Origin: Hyphomicrobiales bacterium
GTDB lineage: Bacteria; Pseudomonadota; Alphaproteobacteria; Rhizobiales; Beijerinckiaceae
Direction: 5' to 3'
Assembly: GCA_019075905.1 (NCBI GenBank)
Contig: JAGXAM010000007.1
Coordinates: forward strand, 62,001-126,000
DNA: 64,000 nt
Part shown: positions 16,468 through 64,000 of the stretch, one piece after another
How positions within the stretch are numbered: position 1 is the first letter of the stretch
Layout: each line of letters opens with the position of its first letter
Position numbers and translations under genes: made by a program
Notes under the pieces: generated by a model
What the model saw: only the letters and a program-made list of their open reading frames with translations
The model's database searches: none
What the model was told of the DNA's origin: nothing

Positions 16468-17340
16468 TCAGCCACGCAGCTTGTGGCAGAGCGCATCGAG
16501 CTGTTCGAGATCGCGGTAGCGGATCCGCACATCGCCGGCGCCGCCGCGATGGCTGATGGTCACCACCAGCCCCAGCGCCTCGCTCAGCGCCTGTTCGAGC
16601 GCTCTTGTGTCGGCATCCTTGCCAGCGCGCGGCTTCTTGGCCCCCGACGTCACTGCCATATCGGCCTCGCGCTGGCCGATATGCTCGACATCACGGACCG
16701 TTAACCCGTCAGCGACGATTCGTTTCGCCACCGAATCGGAATCCTTGACGGCCAGCAGCGCCCGCGCATGCCCGGCGGAAATTTGCCCTGACGCCAGATA
16801 AGCCCTTGTTTGTTCAGGTAGTTTCAACAGTCGCATCATATTCGTGATATGGCTGCGGCTCTTGCCGATGACGTCCGCCAGTTCCTGTTGCGTATAATTG
16901 AACTCTGCCCCGAGCTGCTGGTAGCCCTCGGCCTCTTCCAGCGCATTGAGGTCAGCCCGCTGGACATTTTCGATAATGGCGATTTCCAGCGCCTCCTTGT
17001 CACCGACATCCAGCACCACGACCGGAACGTCCGGCACTGATGCCAGCTGCGCCGCCCGCCAGCGCCTTTCCCCGGCAATGATCTCATAGACATCCGCCAG
17101 CTGCGGCACATGCCGCACCAGAATCGGCTGAATCACCCCCTTGGAGCGAATTGAATTCGACAGATCGCTCAATTCCGCTTCGGCGAAATTCCGGCGCGGA
17201 TTGCGCGGGTTGGGCCGCAGAAACTCGATCGGCACGCGCTTCTGGCCGCGCGCCTGCGCCACCGCCGTTTCTTCATTGACGTGGTCGCCGATCAGCGCCG
17301 CCAGCCCCCGCCCCAACCGGGGCCTCGTTTCCTCTGCCAT
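16468..17340 (-). CDS. parB: Chromosome-partitioning protein ParB
   Basis: CTP-dependent DNA clamp that loads at parS and spreads to build the partition complex; 290 residues. N-terminal RPRLGRGLAALIGD is the usual ParA-contact peptide. The CTP-binding fold has GERRWRA (90-96) and ENVQR (124-128), followed by the helix-turn-helix (about 140-200) and a C-terminal dimer domain. The frame is open to 17370; the ATG at 17340 is preceded by GGACAGGG. It follows parA with a 19-base gap. Three candidate parS sites are in this window. Confidence 0.96.
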   Translation of the reverse strand: MAEETRPRLGRGLAALIGDHVNEETAVAQARGQKRVPIEFLRPNPRNPRRNFAEAELSDLSNSIRSKGVIQPILVRHVPQLADVYEIIAGERRWRAAQLASVPDVPVVVLDVGDKEALEIAIIENVQRADLNALEEAEGYQQLGAEFNYTQQELADVIGKSRSHITNMMRLLKLPEQTRAYLASGQISAGHARALLAVKDSDSVAKRIVADGLTVRDVEHIGQREADMAVTSGAKKPRAGKDADTRALEQALSEALGLVVTISHRGGAGDVRIRYRDLEQLDALCHKLRG

Positions 17341-17359
17341 CGCCCTGTCCATTCCCGCG

Positions 17360-18172
17360 CTAGGCCACACGCAATAGCTGCTCGCGCCGAATCACCTCGG
17401 ACGCCAGCCGCAGATAGGCCTGGGCACCAACACACTTCAAATCATAGAGCAGCACCGGCTTGCCATGCGAGGGCGCTTCCGACACGCGCACATTGCGCGG
17501 AATGATCGTCTCATAGACCTTGTTGCCCATAAACCCGCGCACATCCGCCACCACCTGCGTCGCCAGATTGTTGCGCGGATCAAACATCGTCAGCACCACA
17601 CCATGAATGGTCAGCGCCGGGTTCAGCGCTTTCTTGATCTGGTCAACAGTCGAAAGCAGCTGTGACAGCCCCTCAAGCGCGAAAAACTCGCATTGCAATG
17701 GCACCAGAACACTGTCTGCTGCTGCCAAAGCATTGATCGTCAAGAGATTCAGCGACGGTGGGCAATCCACCAGAACATAGGTGAAGCCGGCCAGCTCCCC
17801 GCGCGCCATAGCCGCCGCCAAACCGCGCAAGGCATGGCGCAGCTTGTAGGCACGATCCGCATCCGGGGCGATTTCCAGCTCGACGCCAAGCAGATCCAGC
17901 ATCGATGGCGCCACCCAAAGCCGCGGTACCGCTGTCTCATGCACCACTTCCGCCAGTGATTTCCGGCCGGTCATGACATCATAGGTGGAACTGCGACGGC
18001 TCTTGCGATCCAGCCCTAGGCCGGTTGAGGCATTGCCCTGCGGATCAAGATCGATGATCAGCACCCGCTCGCCAATGGCGGCCAATGCCGTGCCGAGATT
18101 GATCGCAGTTGTGGTTTTGCCAACGCCGCCCTTTTGGTTGGCCATGACGATCACCCGCATCGGATTTGTCAT
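17360..18172 (-). CDS. parA: Chromosome-partitioning ATPase ParA
   Basis: Walker-type ATPase (270 residues) that forms the DNA-bound gradient moving ParB-parS complexes. Deviant Walker A motif KGGVGKT (14-20) in MANQKGGVGKTTTA, Walker A' DLDPQGN, and Walker B VLVDCPP. The frame is open to 18223, but the ATG at 18172 has GAGGGC before it and gives the family N terminus. It precedes parB and follows rsmG by about 50 bases, the classic alphaproteobacterial order. Confidence 0.97.
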   Translation of the reverse strand: MTNPMRVIVMANQKGGVGKTTTAINLGTALAAIGERVLIIDLDPQGNASTGLGLDRKSRRSSTYDVMTGRKSLAEVVHETAVPRLWVAPSMLDLLGVELEIAPDADRAYKLRHALRGLAAAMARGELAGFTYVLVDCPPSLNLLTINALAAADSVLVPLQCEFFALEGLSQLLSTVDQIKKALNPALTIHGVVLTMFDPRNNLATQVVADVRGFMGNKVYETIIPRNVRVSEAPSHGKPVLLYDLKCVGAQAYLRLASEVIRREQLLRVA

Positions 18173-18222
18173 TTTGCCCTCGCTTGCCTCGCACCGCCGC
18201 GCGAAACTCAATCGCTCCGGCA

Positions 18223-18849
18223 CTAGTTCCTGGCCTTCACCAGCACGATTTGCGCCAGATCGTCCGTGATGCTGCGCCGCTTGTCAAAGCTGAATCTACT
18301 ATCTGTTGCGACCTTGGTCAATTCGACGCCTATATGTTGTCCCTTGGGAAATAGCCCGAGGGCGCCCATCAACAAATATTTCTCTGCATAACCCATCAAG
18401 AGCGGCAATGCGGCCAGTGCCCGGGCGCTGACCACATCTGGTCGGAGCGCCGCATCGGCATCAAATAACTCGATCCGCATGTTGTGAATCTGACAATTCA
18501 CATGGGTTTCACGTGAAACCTCACGAAGGAAAGCGCATTTTCGCTGATCGCTTTCTACGAGATGCGTCACCGAACCGGTAACATTTCGGCGCAGGATCGC
18601 CGCCACCAGGCCGGGAAAGCCCGCCCCCGAGCCGAAATCCAGCCAGCACCGGGCGTCTGGAGCGAGGCGAATAACCTGCGCCGAATCGGCAATATGCCGC
18701 AACCACAGGTGCTGCAGGCTGGGGGGGCTGACGAGGTTGATGGTCTTTTGCCAGTGTCGCAGCAAATCCGCCAGCACCCGCAGCGCGTCTTCTTCGGCAG
18801 CGCCCCACAGGCCGAGGCGACGCGCTGCCTCAAGCCCGCCGTCGTGCAT
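18223..18849 (-). CDS. rsmG: 16S rRNA (guanine-527-N7)-methyltransferase
   Basis: SAM-dependent rRNA methyltransferase (GidB), 208 residues, modifying G527 of 16S rRNA; loss gives low-level streptomycin resistance in several species. Visible: [19 protein letters not shown], the SAM motif [12 protein letters not shown] and the region with [13 protein letters not shown]. Its start overlaps the end of mnmG by 20 bases. A parS-like palindrome lies inside the gene (18505-18520). Confidence 0.95.
18505..18520. other. parS-like site inside rsmG
   Basis: GGTTTCACGTGAAACC: a perfect 16-bp palindrome matching the parS consensus TGTTTCACGTGAAACA at the central 14 positions. It sits in rsmG, about 330 bases before parA, where parS is often found. 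Very likely a ParB loading site. Confidence 0.8.
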
Positions 18850-24152: not shown

Positions 24153-24168
24153 TGATTCACGTGAAACA
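24153..24168. other. parS-like site 1 of an intergenic pair
   Basis: TGATTCACGTGAAACA: one mismatch (T to A at position 3) to the 16-bp parS consensus TGTTTCACGTGAAACA. It is in the 67-base gap between the convergent DUF255 and rho genes. A second copy with the same mismatch starts 23 bases later. Confidence 0.75.
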
Positions 24169-24175
24169 TTGACCA

Positions 24176-24191
24176 TGATTCACGTGAAACA
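24176..24191. other. parS-like site 2 of an intergenic pair
   Basis: TGATTCACGTGAAACA, identical to the copy at 24153-24168, same orientation, 23-base period (about two helical turns). Two identical non-coding copies in a 67-base gap cannot be explained by coding constraint and support a functional ParB loading site. Confidence 0.75.
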
Positions 24192-59860: not shown

Positions 59861-60358
59861 ATGAACGATAATCCGGCCAATGGTGCCGCCAACCCGGCTG
59901 CGGGTCCGCAATTGCAGGCCCTGGCGCAATATACCAAGGACCTGTCCTTCGAGAACCCCAATGCGCCGCGCTCGCTGGGGCCGCAGGAAAAGGGCCCGAA
60001 CATCCAGATTCAGGTCAATGTCGGTGCCAAGCAGGTGAGCGAGACCGATTTTGAGGTCAATCTTCTGCTCGAAGGCTCGGCCGGCGCAGGCGCCGATACG
60101 TTGTTCAAGTTCGAGCTCGATTATGCCGGCTTGTTCCGCCTGACCAATTTCCCGGCGGATCAACTGCACCCGGTCGTCATGATCGAATGCCCGCGCCTGC
60201 TGTTTCCCTTCGCCCGGCAGATCCTTGCCGATGCCGTGCGCTCCGGTGGTTTCCCGCCGCTGTTTCTCGACCCGATCGATTTTCACGCGCTCTACCTGCA
60301 GAACGCCCAGACCCAGCAGGATGCCGGCGCGGCCTCAGCCCTGCAACGCCCGCAATAA
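59861..60358 (+). CDS. secB: Protein-export chaperone SecB
   Basis: Tetrameric cytoplasmic chaperone that delivers preproteins to SecA; 165 residues. Typical blocks: [21 protein letters not shown]-like ([15 protein letters not shown]) and [29 protein letters not shown]. Follows fxsA after 121 bases; convergent with dnaQ with a 52-base gap. Confidence 0.97.
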
Positions 60359-60410: not shown

Positions 60411-61091
60411 TCATGTATCGAGATATTGGCGCCACAGCGCTGTTGCGCCCATTTCGGCAATGAAGGCGGCGTGGGCGGCGCGCTCTGCCTCGGTCAGGCG
60501 CGATGGCAATGGTTCGCTGCGCCGCGCCGTGCCGACCTGCACCGCCGCCTGCACCACGCTCGCCAGACCCAGTGCCGTCTGGCGTTTGCCGGTCAACTCG
60601 GCATAGACATCCGCCAGAATTTCCGCATCGATCAGGGCCCCGTGCTTGGAGCGTTTCGAAGTATCGACGCCAAGCCTGGCGCTGAGCGCATCGAGATTGT
60701 TCGGCATGCCCGGAAAGCGACGGCGTGCCAGCGCCAGCGTATCCGTGACCCGCGCCATATCGAGCAGCGGCTTGCCAATCCGCGCCAGCTCTGCATTCAG
60801 GAAGCGCATGTCGAATTCGGCATTGTGGATCACCAGCTGCGCATCGCCGACAAAGGCCAGAAATTCATCGGATTCCTGTGCAAACAACGGCTTGTCGGCG
60901 AGAAACTCTTCTGACAATCCATGCACCTGAAACGCACCATCCGGCATATCGCGCTGCGGATTGAAATAGCGGTGCCAGGTCTTGCCCGTGGCAATCAGAT
61001 TGACCAGCTCGACACAGCCGATTTCCACAAGCCGGTCGCCCTTTTGCGGATCGAGGCCGGTCGTCTCGGTATCAAGCACGATCTCACGCAT
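60411..61091 (-). CDS. dnaQ: DNA polymerase III epsilon subunit (3'-5' proofreading exonuclease)
   Basis: Proofreading exonuclease of the replicative polymerase; 226 residues. DEDDh motifs: DTETTGLDP (Asp7, Glu9), HNAEFDMRFLN and HGALIDAEILADVY. The C-terminal part carries the segment that binds the alpha subunit. The frame opens at 61202 inside coaE; the ATG at 61091 (MREIVLDTETTGL) is right and comes 4 bases after the coaE stop. Confidence 0.96.
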   Translation of the reverse strand: MREIVLDTETTGLDPQKGDRLVEIGCVELVNLIATGKTWHRYFNPQRDMPDGAFQVHGLSEEFLADKPLFAQESDEFLAFVGDAQLVIHNAEFDMRFLNAELARIGKPLLDMARVTDTLALARRRFPGMPNNLDALSARLGVDTSKRSKHGALIDAEILADVYAELTGKRQTALGLASVVQAAVQVGTARRSEPLPSRLTEAERAAHAAFIAEMGATALWRQYLDT

Positions 61092-61095
61092 GGTT

Positions 61096-61680
61096 TCACT
61101 GTCCGGCAAGGGCCCGCAGCAGCCTTTGCACCGCGCGGCGGGTTGGTTCAACGCCGCTCCCGGTATCCAGCACGAAATGGGCGCGGCGACGCTTTTCCGC
61201 ATCGGGGAGCTGCTGCGCCATTATGGCCTTGAACCGCGCCAAATTCATGCCCGGACGCGCCAGAACGCGGTGCTTTTGCACAGATTTCGGCGCACTGACG
61301 ACGATGATGACATCGACCAGGGCTTCGCCGCCGGTCTCGAACAGCAAGGGAATGTCGAGCACGACCAGCGCGGCACCCTTGCGGCGCTGCTCGTCCAAAA
61401 ACAAATCACGCTGGTGCGCCACCAGGGGATGGATCAGCGCCTCAAGCCGGCGCAGCGCCGCAGCATCACCCAGCACCGCCCGCCCCAGTGCGGTGCGGTT
61501 GACCCCCTGGGGGCCGGTGGTGCCGGGAAAAGCGGCCTCGATCAGCGGCGCAGCCTCGCCGGCATAGAGCCGGTGCACCACGCCATCGGCATCATGCACC
61601 GCAATGCCGGCTTCCCGGAAGAGCCCGGCGGTCGTCGATTTGCCCATGCCGATCGAACCGGTCAGCCCCAGAATCAGCAT
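61096..61680 (-). CDS. coaE: Dephospho-CoA kinase
   Basis: Last enzyme of coenzyme A synthesis; 194 residues. P-loop GLTGSIGMGKST (5-16), followed by DADGVVHRLY, HPLVAHQRDLFL and VLDIPLLFETGGEALVD. Its place between maf and dnaQ is conserved in alphaproteobacteria, but aroE, which often lies between maf and coaE, is missing. Confidence 0.95.
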   Translation of the reverse strand: MLILGLTGSIGMGKSTTAGLFREAGIAVHDADGVVHRLYAGEAAPLIEAAFPGTTGPQGVNRTALGRAVLGDAAALRRLEALIHPLVAHQRDLFLDEQRRKGAALVVLDIPLLFETGGEALVDVIIVVSAPKSVQKHRVLARPGMNLARFKAIMAQQLPDAEKRRRAHFVLDTGSGVEPTRRAVQRLLRALAGQ

Positions 61681-61706: not shown

Positions 61707-62327
61707 TCATGACATCATGAAACCGGCTGCTCGCAGAAAACCCAGCAGGGGCAGCAGCGGCAATCCGAGAATCGTCGAATGATCGCCCTCGATTTTGTCA
61801 AAAAGCTGAATGCCATAGCCTTCGATCTGATAGCCGCCGACGCTGCTCAGGGCCTTGTCGCCGACCTTGTCGAGATAAAGTTCGAGGAAAGCCTCACCCG
61901 GCATCCGCATGGTCAACCGCGCGACGCTGGCATCCGCCCACAGGCGCTGGCCATCACGAAACACCGCCACCGCCGAAACCAGTTCATGGACCGGCGCCGC
62001 CGCCAGCGCCATCAGCTGTGCTTTTGCAGCCTTCCTGTCTCTTGGCTTGTGCAGCAAGCTGTCCCCCAGAACCAGCACCTGGTCGGCACCGATCACAACA
62101 TGCCCCTGATGGCGCCGCGAGACCTCAGCCGCCTTGGCACCGGCAAGCGCCCCCGCGAGCGCGGCGGGCTCATGGGTTACCATATCGGCCTCCAGCGCCC
62201 GCTCATCGACATCGGGAGCAACGGTCAGCGGTTTCAGTCCGGCAGATTGTAGCAGCGTCAGCCGCGTCGCGCTTTGCGACGCGAGGATCAACGGCCGTTC
62301 ATGGCACCAGAAATCGCTGCCGCTCAC
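61707..62327 (-). CDS. maf: Maf family nucleotide pyrophosphatase
   Basis: House-cleaning nucleoside-triphosphate pyrophosphatase of 206 residues; relatives hydrolyse dTTP, UTP or modified nucleotides. Motifs: [18 protein letters not shown], the Asp of VIGADQVL and the C-terminal [27 protein letters not shown] pattern in part. GTG start overlapping the PPSR stop by four bases. Confidence 0.93.
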
Positions 62328-63157
62328 GCCTGCACCATGAATTTCATGCGATGCGCGCCATAAAGATCAATGACCGCCGCCGCCGTCTCCTCGATGGAGC
62401 GACGGCTGACATCAATCACCGGCCAGCCATATTCCGCAAAAAGACGCCGGGAATGAGCGATTTCCTCATTGACGGCCATGCGGTCAACATAAGGCGTCTC
62501 ATGATCGGCATTCAACGACAGCAGGCGATTTTGCCTGATCTGAATGATCCGCTCCGCTGAAGCCACCAGCCCGACAATGAGCGGACGGCGCACCTTGGTG
62601 ACAGCAGATGGCAAGGGAACGCCCGGCACCAGCGGCACATTCGCGGTCTTGTAGCCGCGATTGGCGAGATAGATGCTGGTGGGTGTCTTTGACGTGCGGC
62701 TGATGCCGAGCAGCAGGATATCGGCTTCTTCGAGATGCTCGTGCTGTTGGCCATCATCATGCATCATGGTGAAGTTCAGCGCGTCAATCCGCTTGAAATA
62801 ATCGGCATTCAGCAGATGTTGCGCGCCGGGTCGTGGCGTTGCCGCCGTGCCGAGATAGGCGTTGAACAAGCCAAGGATCGGCTGCAGCACCGACAGGCAC
62901 GGCGCACCGAGTTCGCGGCACGCGGCCTCCAGCAGCGCCGTCAAATCGGCATCAACCAGCGTGAACAGCACGATGCCGGGCGAGGTCTCGATTTCGCGAA
63001 ACACGCGTTCGAGCTGGGATTTATTGCGCACCATCGGGTATATATGCTCGATCGAGCCAATGCCCTGAAACTGCGCCCCGACCGCGCGCGAAATCGCGAT
63101 CAGCGTCTCACCGGTCGAGTCTGACACGAGGTGCAGATGAAAATAGTTTCGACTCAC
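62324..63157 (-). CDS. PPSR family bifunctional kinase/phosphotransferase (DUF299)
   Basis: Regulatory kinase/pyrophosphorylase of 277 residues, the family that phosphorylates and dephosphorylates PEP synthase or pyruvate phosphate dikinase. N-terminal [11 protein letters not shown]-loop [11 protein letters not shown] (151-161) and C-terminal [19 protein letters not shown] start. It flanks the proposed origin gap; in Caulobacter the mapped origin lies between hemE and the gene I take to be the homologue of this one. Confidence 0.92.
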
Positions 63158-63556
63158 GATATCGCCTCTTGTCCCCGTTCTTCACAAACCACGTCTCGGC
63201 CCTTGTGGGAAGACGGGAGAAACCGGGTCGCTGCTGCCCGGCCCTGTGCAAAAGCTGGACAGCCGCGAAATTTCGTCCCCATGCGACATCATGCGCATGG
63301 CAGGCGGTGGAAAATTGTGGATTGCGGGGTTCCTCTCCTTATACAGGGCTCATGATTTGCCTATAGCTTTCATAACTCTATGAATTTGCTGAATTTTTCA
63401 AAATCATCAACACGCTGGTGATAAAGTCTCCCGCCATCATAAGCAGGAATTGCGGCTGTTTAAGATGTGCAGGCGGCTGGATTAACGCAAAAGGGTGCTC
63501 TAACAAGAGCCTTAATAAAAAGATTCAAGGAAGTTTTTTTAGCGCAGGGGCGATGG
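63158..63556. other. oriC: Putative chromosomal replication origin (hemE-PPSR gap)
   Basis: 399-base non-coding gap, AT-enriched from about 63345 to 63430 and 63500 to 63545. DnaA-box-like 9-mers, each within one or two mismatches of TTATNCACA: TTCTTCACA (63178-63186), TGTGCAAAA (63245-63253), TGTGGATTG (63316-63324) and TGGTGATAA (63416-63424). Two GANTC methylation-type sites (63151, 63522) and a perfect inverted repeat TTCATA/TATGAA (63369-63384) are also seen. Position between hemE and PPSR and the parABS genes in the window support it. No consensus-perfect DnaA box was found. Confidence 0.5.
63369..63384. repeat. Inverted repeat TTCATA-4-TATGAA in the origin gap
   Basis: Perfect 6-bp arms with a 4-base centre, inside the most AT-rich part of the gap. 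It could be part of the unwinding region or a regulator site for hemE. Confidence 0.4.
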
Positions 63557-64000
63557 TTGCGGAAATTTCTTGAAACGCTTTCTGGCCGCAGTCCTTCTTC
63601 GCCACCAGTCTGGATGATGCGGCAGGCCGGGCGCTATCTGCCGGAATACCGGGCCTTGCGGGCGCAAGCGCCATCATTTCTGGAATTTTGCTACAATCCC
63701 GACCTCGCGACCGAGGCGACCTTGCAGCCGGTCCAGCGCTTCGGCTTTGATGCCGCTATTCTGTTCAGCGACATTCTGGTGGTGCCTGATGCACTCGGCC
63801 AGCGGGTCAGCTTTGAGACTGGCGAGGGTCCGCGCCTTGAGCCGATTACCGATGACAGCGGGCTTGCCGCCTTGCAGGATCACCTTGATCTGACCCGCCT
63901 CGCCCCGGTGCTTGAAACGGTGCGGCGAGTGCGGGCAGGGCTCGCCGATGACAAGGCGCTCATCGGCTTTTGCGGCGCTCCCTGGACGGTGGCAAGCTAT
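63557..64000 (+). CDS. hemE: Uroporphyrinogen decarboxylase, 5' part (runs off the window)
   Basis: Haem-pathway enzyme decarboxylating uroporphyrinogen III to coproporphyrinogen III. The first 148 codons are present: [17 protein letters not shown] with the catalytic-site Arg residues, [18 protein letters not shown] with the active-site Asp, and [11 protein letters not shown] at the edge. There is no ATG at the right place; TTG at 63557 gives a normal N terminus and has GGGG 6 bases upstream. The gene is truncated only by the window end. Confidence 0.9.

Follow-up and report, generated by a model that had tools for sequence, protein, structure and literature searches.

A predicted replication origin between the PPSR gene and hemE in a Beijerinckiaceae bacterium, with degenerate DnaA boxes and no CtrA box

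Does the intergenic gap between two divergent genes in a Hyphomicrobiales bacterium (Beijerinckiaceae) mark the place where its chromosome starts to replicate? The stretch of DNA analysed here (the window; 64,000 nucleotides) corresponds to bases 62001–126000 of the 132,588-base contig C28, in a genome of 2.88 Mb and 33 contigs. The PPSR of this locus shares 97% identity with that of L074 (Proteobacteria) and 92% with that of L037 (Beijerinckiaceae), both from metagenome genomes. The gap lies at 63158–63556 (399 bases). Its left flank is the gene for the pyruvate, phosphate dikinase regulator (PPSR, COG1806; 62324–63157, minus strand, start at 63157), which scores 335 bits with NF003742 against a cut-off of 225. 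Its right flank is hemE (63557–64000, plus strand, continuing beyond the window in the contig), for which the full gene in L006 scores 397.9 bits with TIGR01464 (cut-off 302.95). The hemE start was placed at the TTG codon at 63557 (plus strand), in agreement with the earlier reading, and this placement sets the length of the gap. The hemE frame is already open from 63467, upstream of the chosen start; in alignment, a one-base indel relative to the closest relative falls inside 63467–63556, which argues that this stretch is non-coding. Further left are maf (61707–62327, minus strand; 218.5 bits with NF002690 against a cut-off of 269, and 116.6 with TIGR00172 against 117.15), coaE (61096–61680, minus strand; TIGR00152, 102.2 bits, cut-off 65.55), dnaQ (60411–61202, minus strand; TIGR01406, 273.8 bits, cut-off 222.7) and secB (59861–60358, plus strand; NF004392, 197.4 bits, cut-off 143). 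On the same contig, hemJ follows hemE beyond the window's end. A 399-base non-coding gap and the order PPSR-maf-coaE-dnaQ-secB had both been proposed in the original prediction, and both are borne out, the gene order by NCBIfam profiles with maf slightly under the curated cut-offs.

Sequence and surroundings make it very probable that chromosome replication starts in this gap, an origin of the alphaproteobacterial type flanked by the PPSR gene and hemE; in these bacteria an origin would be expected here. According to the accessible parts of two reports, the Caulobacter crescentus origin, Cori, lies between hemE and a COG1806 gene and contains DnaA boxes, CtrA boxes of the form TTAA-N7-TTAA and an IHF site (PMC1914354; PMC4285127). 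The window's gap resembles Cori, as described in the accessible part of the first report, in being an intergenic gap between hemE and a COG1806 gene, in its DnaA-like boxes and in its AT-richness (PMC1914354). Unlike Cori, it has neither a CtrA box nor an IHF match, and its boxes are degenerate, none of them being the Caulobacter G-box TGATCCACA. The in silico origins of Rickettsia prowazekii and Wolbachia share with it a hemE flank, a length of about 400 bases or more, AT enrichment and DnaA-like boxes; in contrast to the window's gap, most of the Wolbachia origins shown have sites for CtrA and IHF (the CtrA motif is missing in one strain), and their left neighbour differs from PPSR, again as far as the accessible part of that report goes (PMC1914354). 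A literature search, with most subscription journals outside its scope, found no paper on a Beijerinckiaceae or Methylobacterium origin.

Six 9-mers within two mismatches of TTATCCACA are found in the gap, compared with 0.95 in dinucleotide shuffles (p = 0.0015), and none lies within one mismatch. The DnaA-box-like 9-mers predicted earlier are thus indeed degenerate, while their number, given as four, is six at this threshold. On the plus strand, TTCTTCACA is located at 63178–63186 (two mismatches; matrix score 9.3) and the likewise degenerate TCATCAACA at 63404–63412. Those on the minus strand all have two mismatches: TTTTGCACA at 63245–63253 (matrix score 5.2), TTTTCCACC at 63306–63314 (7.5), CAATCCACA at 63316–63324 (11.0, the best of the gap) and TTATCACCA at 63416–63424 (6.0). 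A further 9-mer, TCGTCCCCA at 63273–63281 on the plus strand, is recognised only by the matrix (score 9.4; three mismatches to TTATCCACA). The boxes form a cluster, yet each of them has at least two mismatches to TTATCCACA. In the closest relative, L008, the position of CAATCCACA is taken by TAATCCACA, which has one mismatch. In L010, of the same genus, the box aligned to 63404–63412 sits directly after a CtrA box that is absent in the window. Exact copies of TTATCCACA occur at four sites in the genome, on contigs C19, C23 (two, ~90 kb apart) and C24, with none on C28.

The original prediction had called for a search with a DnaA-box matrix. Such a matrix was built from the gaps of relatives, with the four genus members excluded, and applied with 15 pairings of a training rule and a threshold; the scan of the window's own genome covered contig C28 and the dnaA locus. 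In 14 of the 15 settings the gap outscores all 5256 overlapping 400-base windows of the contig that do not touch it and so ranks first as a box cluster; in the fifteenth, 94 contig windows score the same or higher. In sampled DNA of eight relatives with single-contig assemblies, the corresponding gap is the top cluster in six at the lower threshold and in five at the higher one, the gaps of two of the eight (G011 and G065) having belonged to the training set. In G038 and G107 it is not the top cluster at either threshold, and in G011 two windows tie with or exceed it at the higher one.

The base composition of the gap is also distinctive. Its GC content is 49.9%, against 62.3% for the contig, and equally AT-rich 399-base windows make up 0.66% of the contig; the partial AT enrichment noted earlier therefore holds, with about 50% AT compared with 38%. 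The most AT-rich 60 bases (63353–63412, 72% AT) are matched by 0.03% of the contig's 60-base windows. This central stretch and the hemE-proximal end may be regarded as candidate unwinding regions. Near the latter end, a block at 63474–63543 that includes AAGATTC is nearly identical in alignment across the three closest genomes, in which the middle of the gap has diverged; it could be an unwinding element, a hemE promoter or both. The word AAGATTCT occurs 21 times in 75 non-redundant gaps of relatives, where 1.1 are expected. The gap contains one GANTC (CcrM-type) site, at 63522–63526, so the several such sites of the original prediction were an error. Across the gaps of relatives, GANTC occurs 249 times, compared with 119 in base shuffles; it lies within the last 110 hemE-proximal bases in 68 of the 75 gaps, at 15.6 per kb there and 4.9 per kb elsewhere. 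These 110 bases are more AT-rich than the rest of the gaps (46% versus 55% GC), which may by itself raise the number of GANTC-like words. A RAMA-domain (CcrM-type) protein is encoded in the window's genome. No match to WATCAANNNNTTR, which we take to be the IHF consensus, was found in the window's gap, and hence no IHF site overlapping a CtrA site; the same word is matched in four of 86 loci. A scan of the gap region for sigma-70 promoters and terminators found none, an RNA-family scan around the gap gave one match, far under its gathering score and judged to be due to chance, and a repeat scan gave one 12-base inverted pair (83%).

Cumulative GC skew on the own contig reaches its minimum at 62572, which is 586 bases left of the gap. 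Skew is −0.042 over the 125 kb to the left and +0.010 over the 7 kb to the right, and since the contig ends there, the rising arm is barely visible; the value of the right 7 kb exceeds those of all 237 overlapping left windows of equal length (0/237 as high). The skew check proposed in the original prediction thus came out in favour on the own contig, with 7 kb available on the right side. In the eight single-contig relatives, sampled in 20 kb stretches, the outcome is divided. Skew in G011 flips between two stretches that abut the gap, with a local minimum 2.6 kb off and the maximum near the antipode, and that in G128 turns at the gap, with a local minimum about 1 kb off. The turn in G062 is near, at about 16 kb from the gap or somewhat more, and G077 is weakly consistent (turn 70–420 kb left of the gap). 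In four others (G022, G038, G065 and G107) the sampled stretches show no clear minimum at the gap, and in G107 four of the five stretches to its right have negative skew; these four may be rearranged or misjoined sequences or true exceptions. The 3.4 Mb single contig C1 of G065 (L159–L178) has positive GC skew in 18 of 20 sampled stretches, which is odd for a circular chromosome and may reflect a misjoined assembly.

The gap was then compared across 110 PPSR loci (L007–L116, the window's own included). Every locus was found via PPSR, so loci where PPSR has left the origin escape this sampling, and 12 of 149 genomes gave no PPSR match. hemE adjoins PPSR in 86 of the 110 loci. Removal of identical gaps left 81, with a median length of 420 bases (range 336–688), and removal of near copies left the 75 non-redundant gaps used for word counts. 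Among 80 named loci, hemE is adjacent in 61, and maf, coaE and dnaQ are found in the examined flank in 56 of these. Boxes within one mismatch number 97 in the 75 gaps, against 5.0 in dinucleotide shuffles and three for the reversed word as a control; 58 gaps have at least one, and TCCACA is the top enriched 6-mer without prior specification. The window's gap is one of the 17 that have none, and counts in its genus run from zero in the window through one in L008 and two in L009 to four in L010. The element is a predicted origin of known type, with boxes weaker than those of most relatives and no CtrA box.

The examined flank shows no hemE in 24 PPSR loci; in 20 of these the gap abuts hemJ, and no hemJ match was obtained in the other four (L016, L065, L071 and L096). 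Profile matches confirmed HemJ in all five loci examined for it and, behind it, Rho in the single locus examined. L019, L020, L058, L061, L066 and L070 are among the loci where hemE does not separate the putative origin from hemJ. The hemJ-bounded gaps are 395–547 bases long (20 loci), and with near copies included they contain 18 boxes, compared with 1.7 in base shuffles. The 15 non-redundant ones contain 17 boxes, compared with 1.1 in dinucleotide shuffles (maximum 6); 11 of the 15 have a box and six have a CtrA box. The Bradyrhizobium loci of this set have no box or one. Persistence of the boxes with hemJ in place of hemE shows that the element does not depend on hemE and argues against a mere hemE promoter.

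As had been predicted, partition genes and parS-like sites share the window, at a distance of 39–47 kb from the gap. parB (16468–17370, minus strand) has a TIGR00180 domain (193.8 bits, cut-off 58.45), and a parA-like ATPase gene (17360–18223, minus strand) matches partition ATPase models under their cut-offs. The parS-like site GGTTTCACGTGAAACC at 18505–18520 (plus strand) has two mismatches to the consensus, and TGATTCACGTGAAACA at 24153–24168 and 24176–24191 (both plus strand) has one. The two identical sites are 23 bases apart and immediately downstream of rho, towards mnmE. Three such sites are found where 0.09 are expected, and one of 100 shuffles reached as many. In this class parAB usually lies near the origin, according to the accessible part of one report (PMC8116508). 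The dnaA gene is on another contig, C2, and its locus (dnaA plus 1.5 kb on each side) has only two sites with a matrix score above 7.

Three other readings of the gap were weighed, each of them highly improbable. It could merely contain divergent promoters of PPSR and hemE and have no origin function, in keeping with the start of both genes at its edges and with conservation that, in the three closest genomes, is highest in the hemE-proximal 70 bases. Against such a reading, gap length and box enrichment persist in the 20 loci where the gap abuts hemJ, DnaA-like boxes are spread across the whole gap, and skew flips there on the own contig. Placement of the origin close by, for example in the 7 kb that follow hemE or past the contig end, is given about as little credence. 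The skew minima of G011 and G062 are displaced from the gap, and the contig stops a short way to the right of it, as such a placement would allow; the box cluster and the conserved length point to the gap itself, and the minima of G128 and of the own contig are each less than 1 kb away from it.

Least probable is a relic origin with decayed boxes, whose role in initiation has passed to another site, such as the area of rho/mnmE and parS or the vicinity of dnaA. The window's gap is without a strong box or a CtrA box, while L010 of the same genus has four boxes (one mismatch) and two CtrA boxes, and the three parS-like sites are 39–45 kb away. The gap nevertheless remains the contig's top box cluster in all settings except one, the turn of the skew on the own contig falls at the gap rather than in the parS area, and the dnaA locus is poor in high-scoring sites. 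The reading of the gap as the replication origin, which the original prediction had put forward, is thus supported by the skew flip on its own contig, the top DnaA-box cluster and the flanking genes, and it remains a prediction.

At such an origin, DnaA-ATP would load cooperatively on the cluster of weak boxes and would then melt an AT-rich stretch, either mid-gap or at the hemE end, where the helicase would enter. Forks departing both ways from the gap would give rise to the skew flip.

The gaps of relatives differ most visibly from that of the window in a putative CtrA site. Of the 75 gaps, 27 contain TTAA-N7-TTAA, with 31 copies in all, whereas other spacings from 2 to 15 give 0–2 occurrences. 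A perfect box lies 150–260 bases from hemE in 23 gaps and a one-mismatch box in eight more, 44 having none there; in the remaining gaps with a perfect box, it is outside this range. These gaps share TTAA-N7-TTAA with Cori, judging from the accessible parts of the reports (PMC1914354; PMC4285127). A CCACA core starts 4–5 bases behind 10 of the 31 boxes, which stand right before a DnaA box. In many relatives, the response regulator CtrA could occupy this site and block DnaA in the way reported for Caulobacter. Over whole genomes, the reversed pattern outnumbers the CtrA box in each of the eight genomes queried, so the argument rests on its place and spacing in the gap. This spacing-specific box was newly observed in the present analysis.

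No TTAA-N7-TTAA within one mismatch is found in the window's gap, the best candidate being TAACAAGAGCCTTAA at 63501 with two mismatches. The box is also absent from the gaps of the window's two nearest relatives (L008 and L009) and present in L010 (two boxes) and L012. The tree nests the window, L008 and L009 inside the holders L010 and L012, with a support of 0.79 for the node joining L012. Perfect boxes 150–260 bases from hemE require 14 changes on the tree, compared with 19.8 for shuffled labels (minimum 12), and 15 compared with 24.2 (minimum 18) when one mismatch is allowed. The box thus tracks kinship only partly, and its ancestral presence is a suggestion. ctrA itself is found in the window's genome (C29:76815–77486; 92% identity to a CtrA query), and 55 of the 60 genomes searched (E 1e-60) have it; CtrA is thus still encoded, and it probably does not silence the origin via the absent TTAA-N7-TTAA site. 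No ctrA match was obtained at this threshold in G003, the 73% complete genome of L009. Likewise, G033 (97% complete), whose gap at locus L030 contains a perfect CtrA box, gave no ctrA match at E 1e-60, possibly through an assembly hole.

The chromosomal origin of Sinorhizobium meliloti, which we take to adjoin hemE, invites comparison. Its bacterium belongs to the same order as that of the window, and the CtrA motif is absent in both; in the accessible part of the report it is described as lacking the motif and not being bound by CtrA (PMC4433202). The Brucella abortus origin is likewise reported not to be bound by CtrA, and CtrA of Hyphomonas is reported to bind next to the origin, in the accessible parts of the respective studies (PMC2877005; PMC7200025). 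Unlike that of S. meliloti, more than a third of the Hyphomicrobiales gaps compared here (27/75) hold a perfect CtrA box. Direct control of the origin by CtrA may be old in the Hyphomicrobiales, acting via a box at a comparable position in the gap that in a third of cases immediately precedes a DnaA box, and may have been lost several times; the box would have gone from the window, L008 and L009, with the window's genome keeping CtrA and a CcrM-type protein. We hold this scenario tentatively, at somewhat less than even odds, which were lowered slightly because of the missing ctrA match in G033 and the patchy history of the box.

The analysis places the predicted origin of a Beijerinckiaceae lineage, and it indicates that the origin features of the gap are kept even where hemE no longer adjoins it. 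The recurring CtrA box runs counter to the picture of CtrA-unbound origins drawn from Sinorhizobium and Brucella, as far as the accessible parts of those reports convey it (PMC4433202; PMC2877005). The wider CtrA pattern is worth following, as gain and loss of the box at the origin can be tested by comparing relatives. If the scenario of an old and repeatedly lost control is true, the order would offer a natural series for the uncoupling of a cell-cycle brake from the replication origin.
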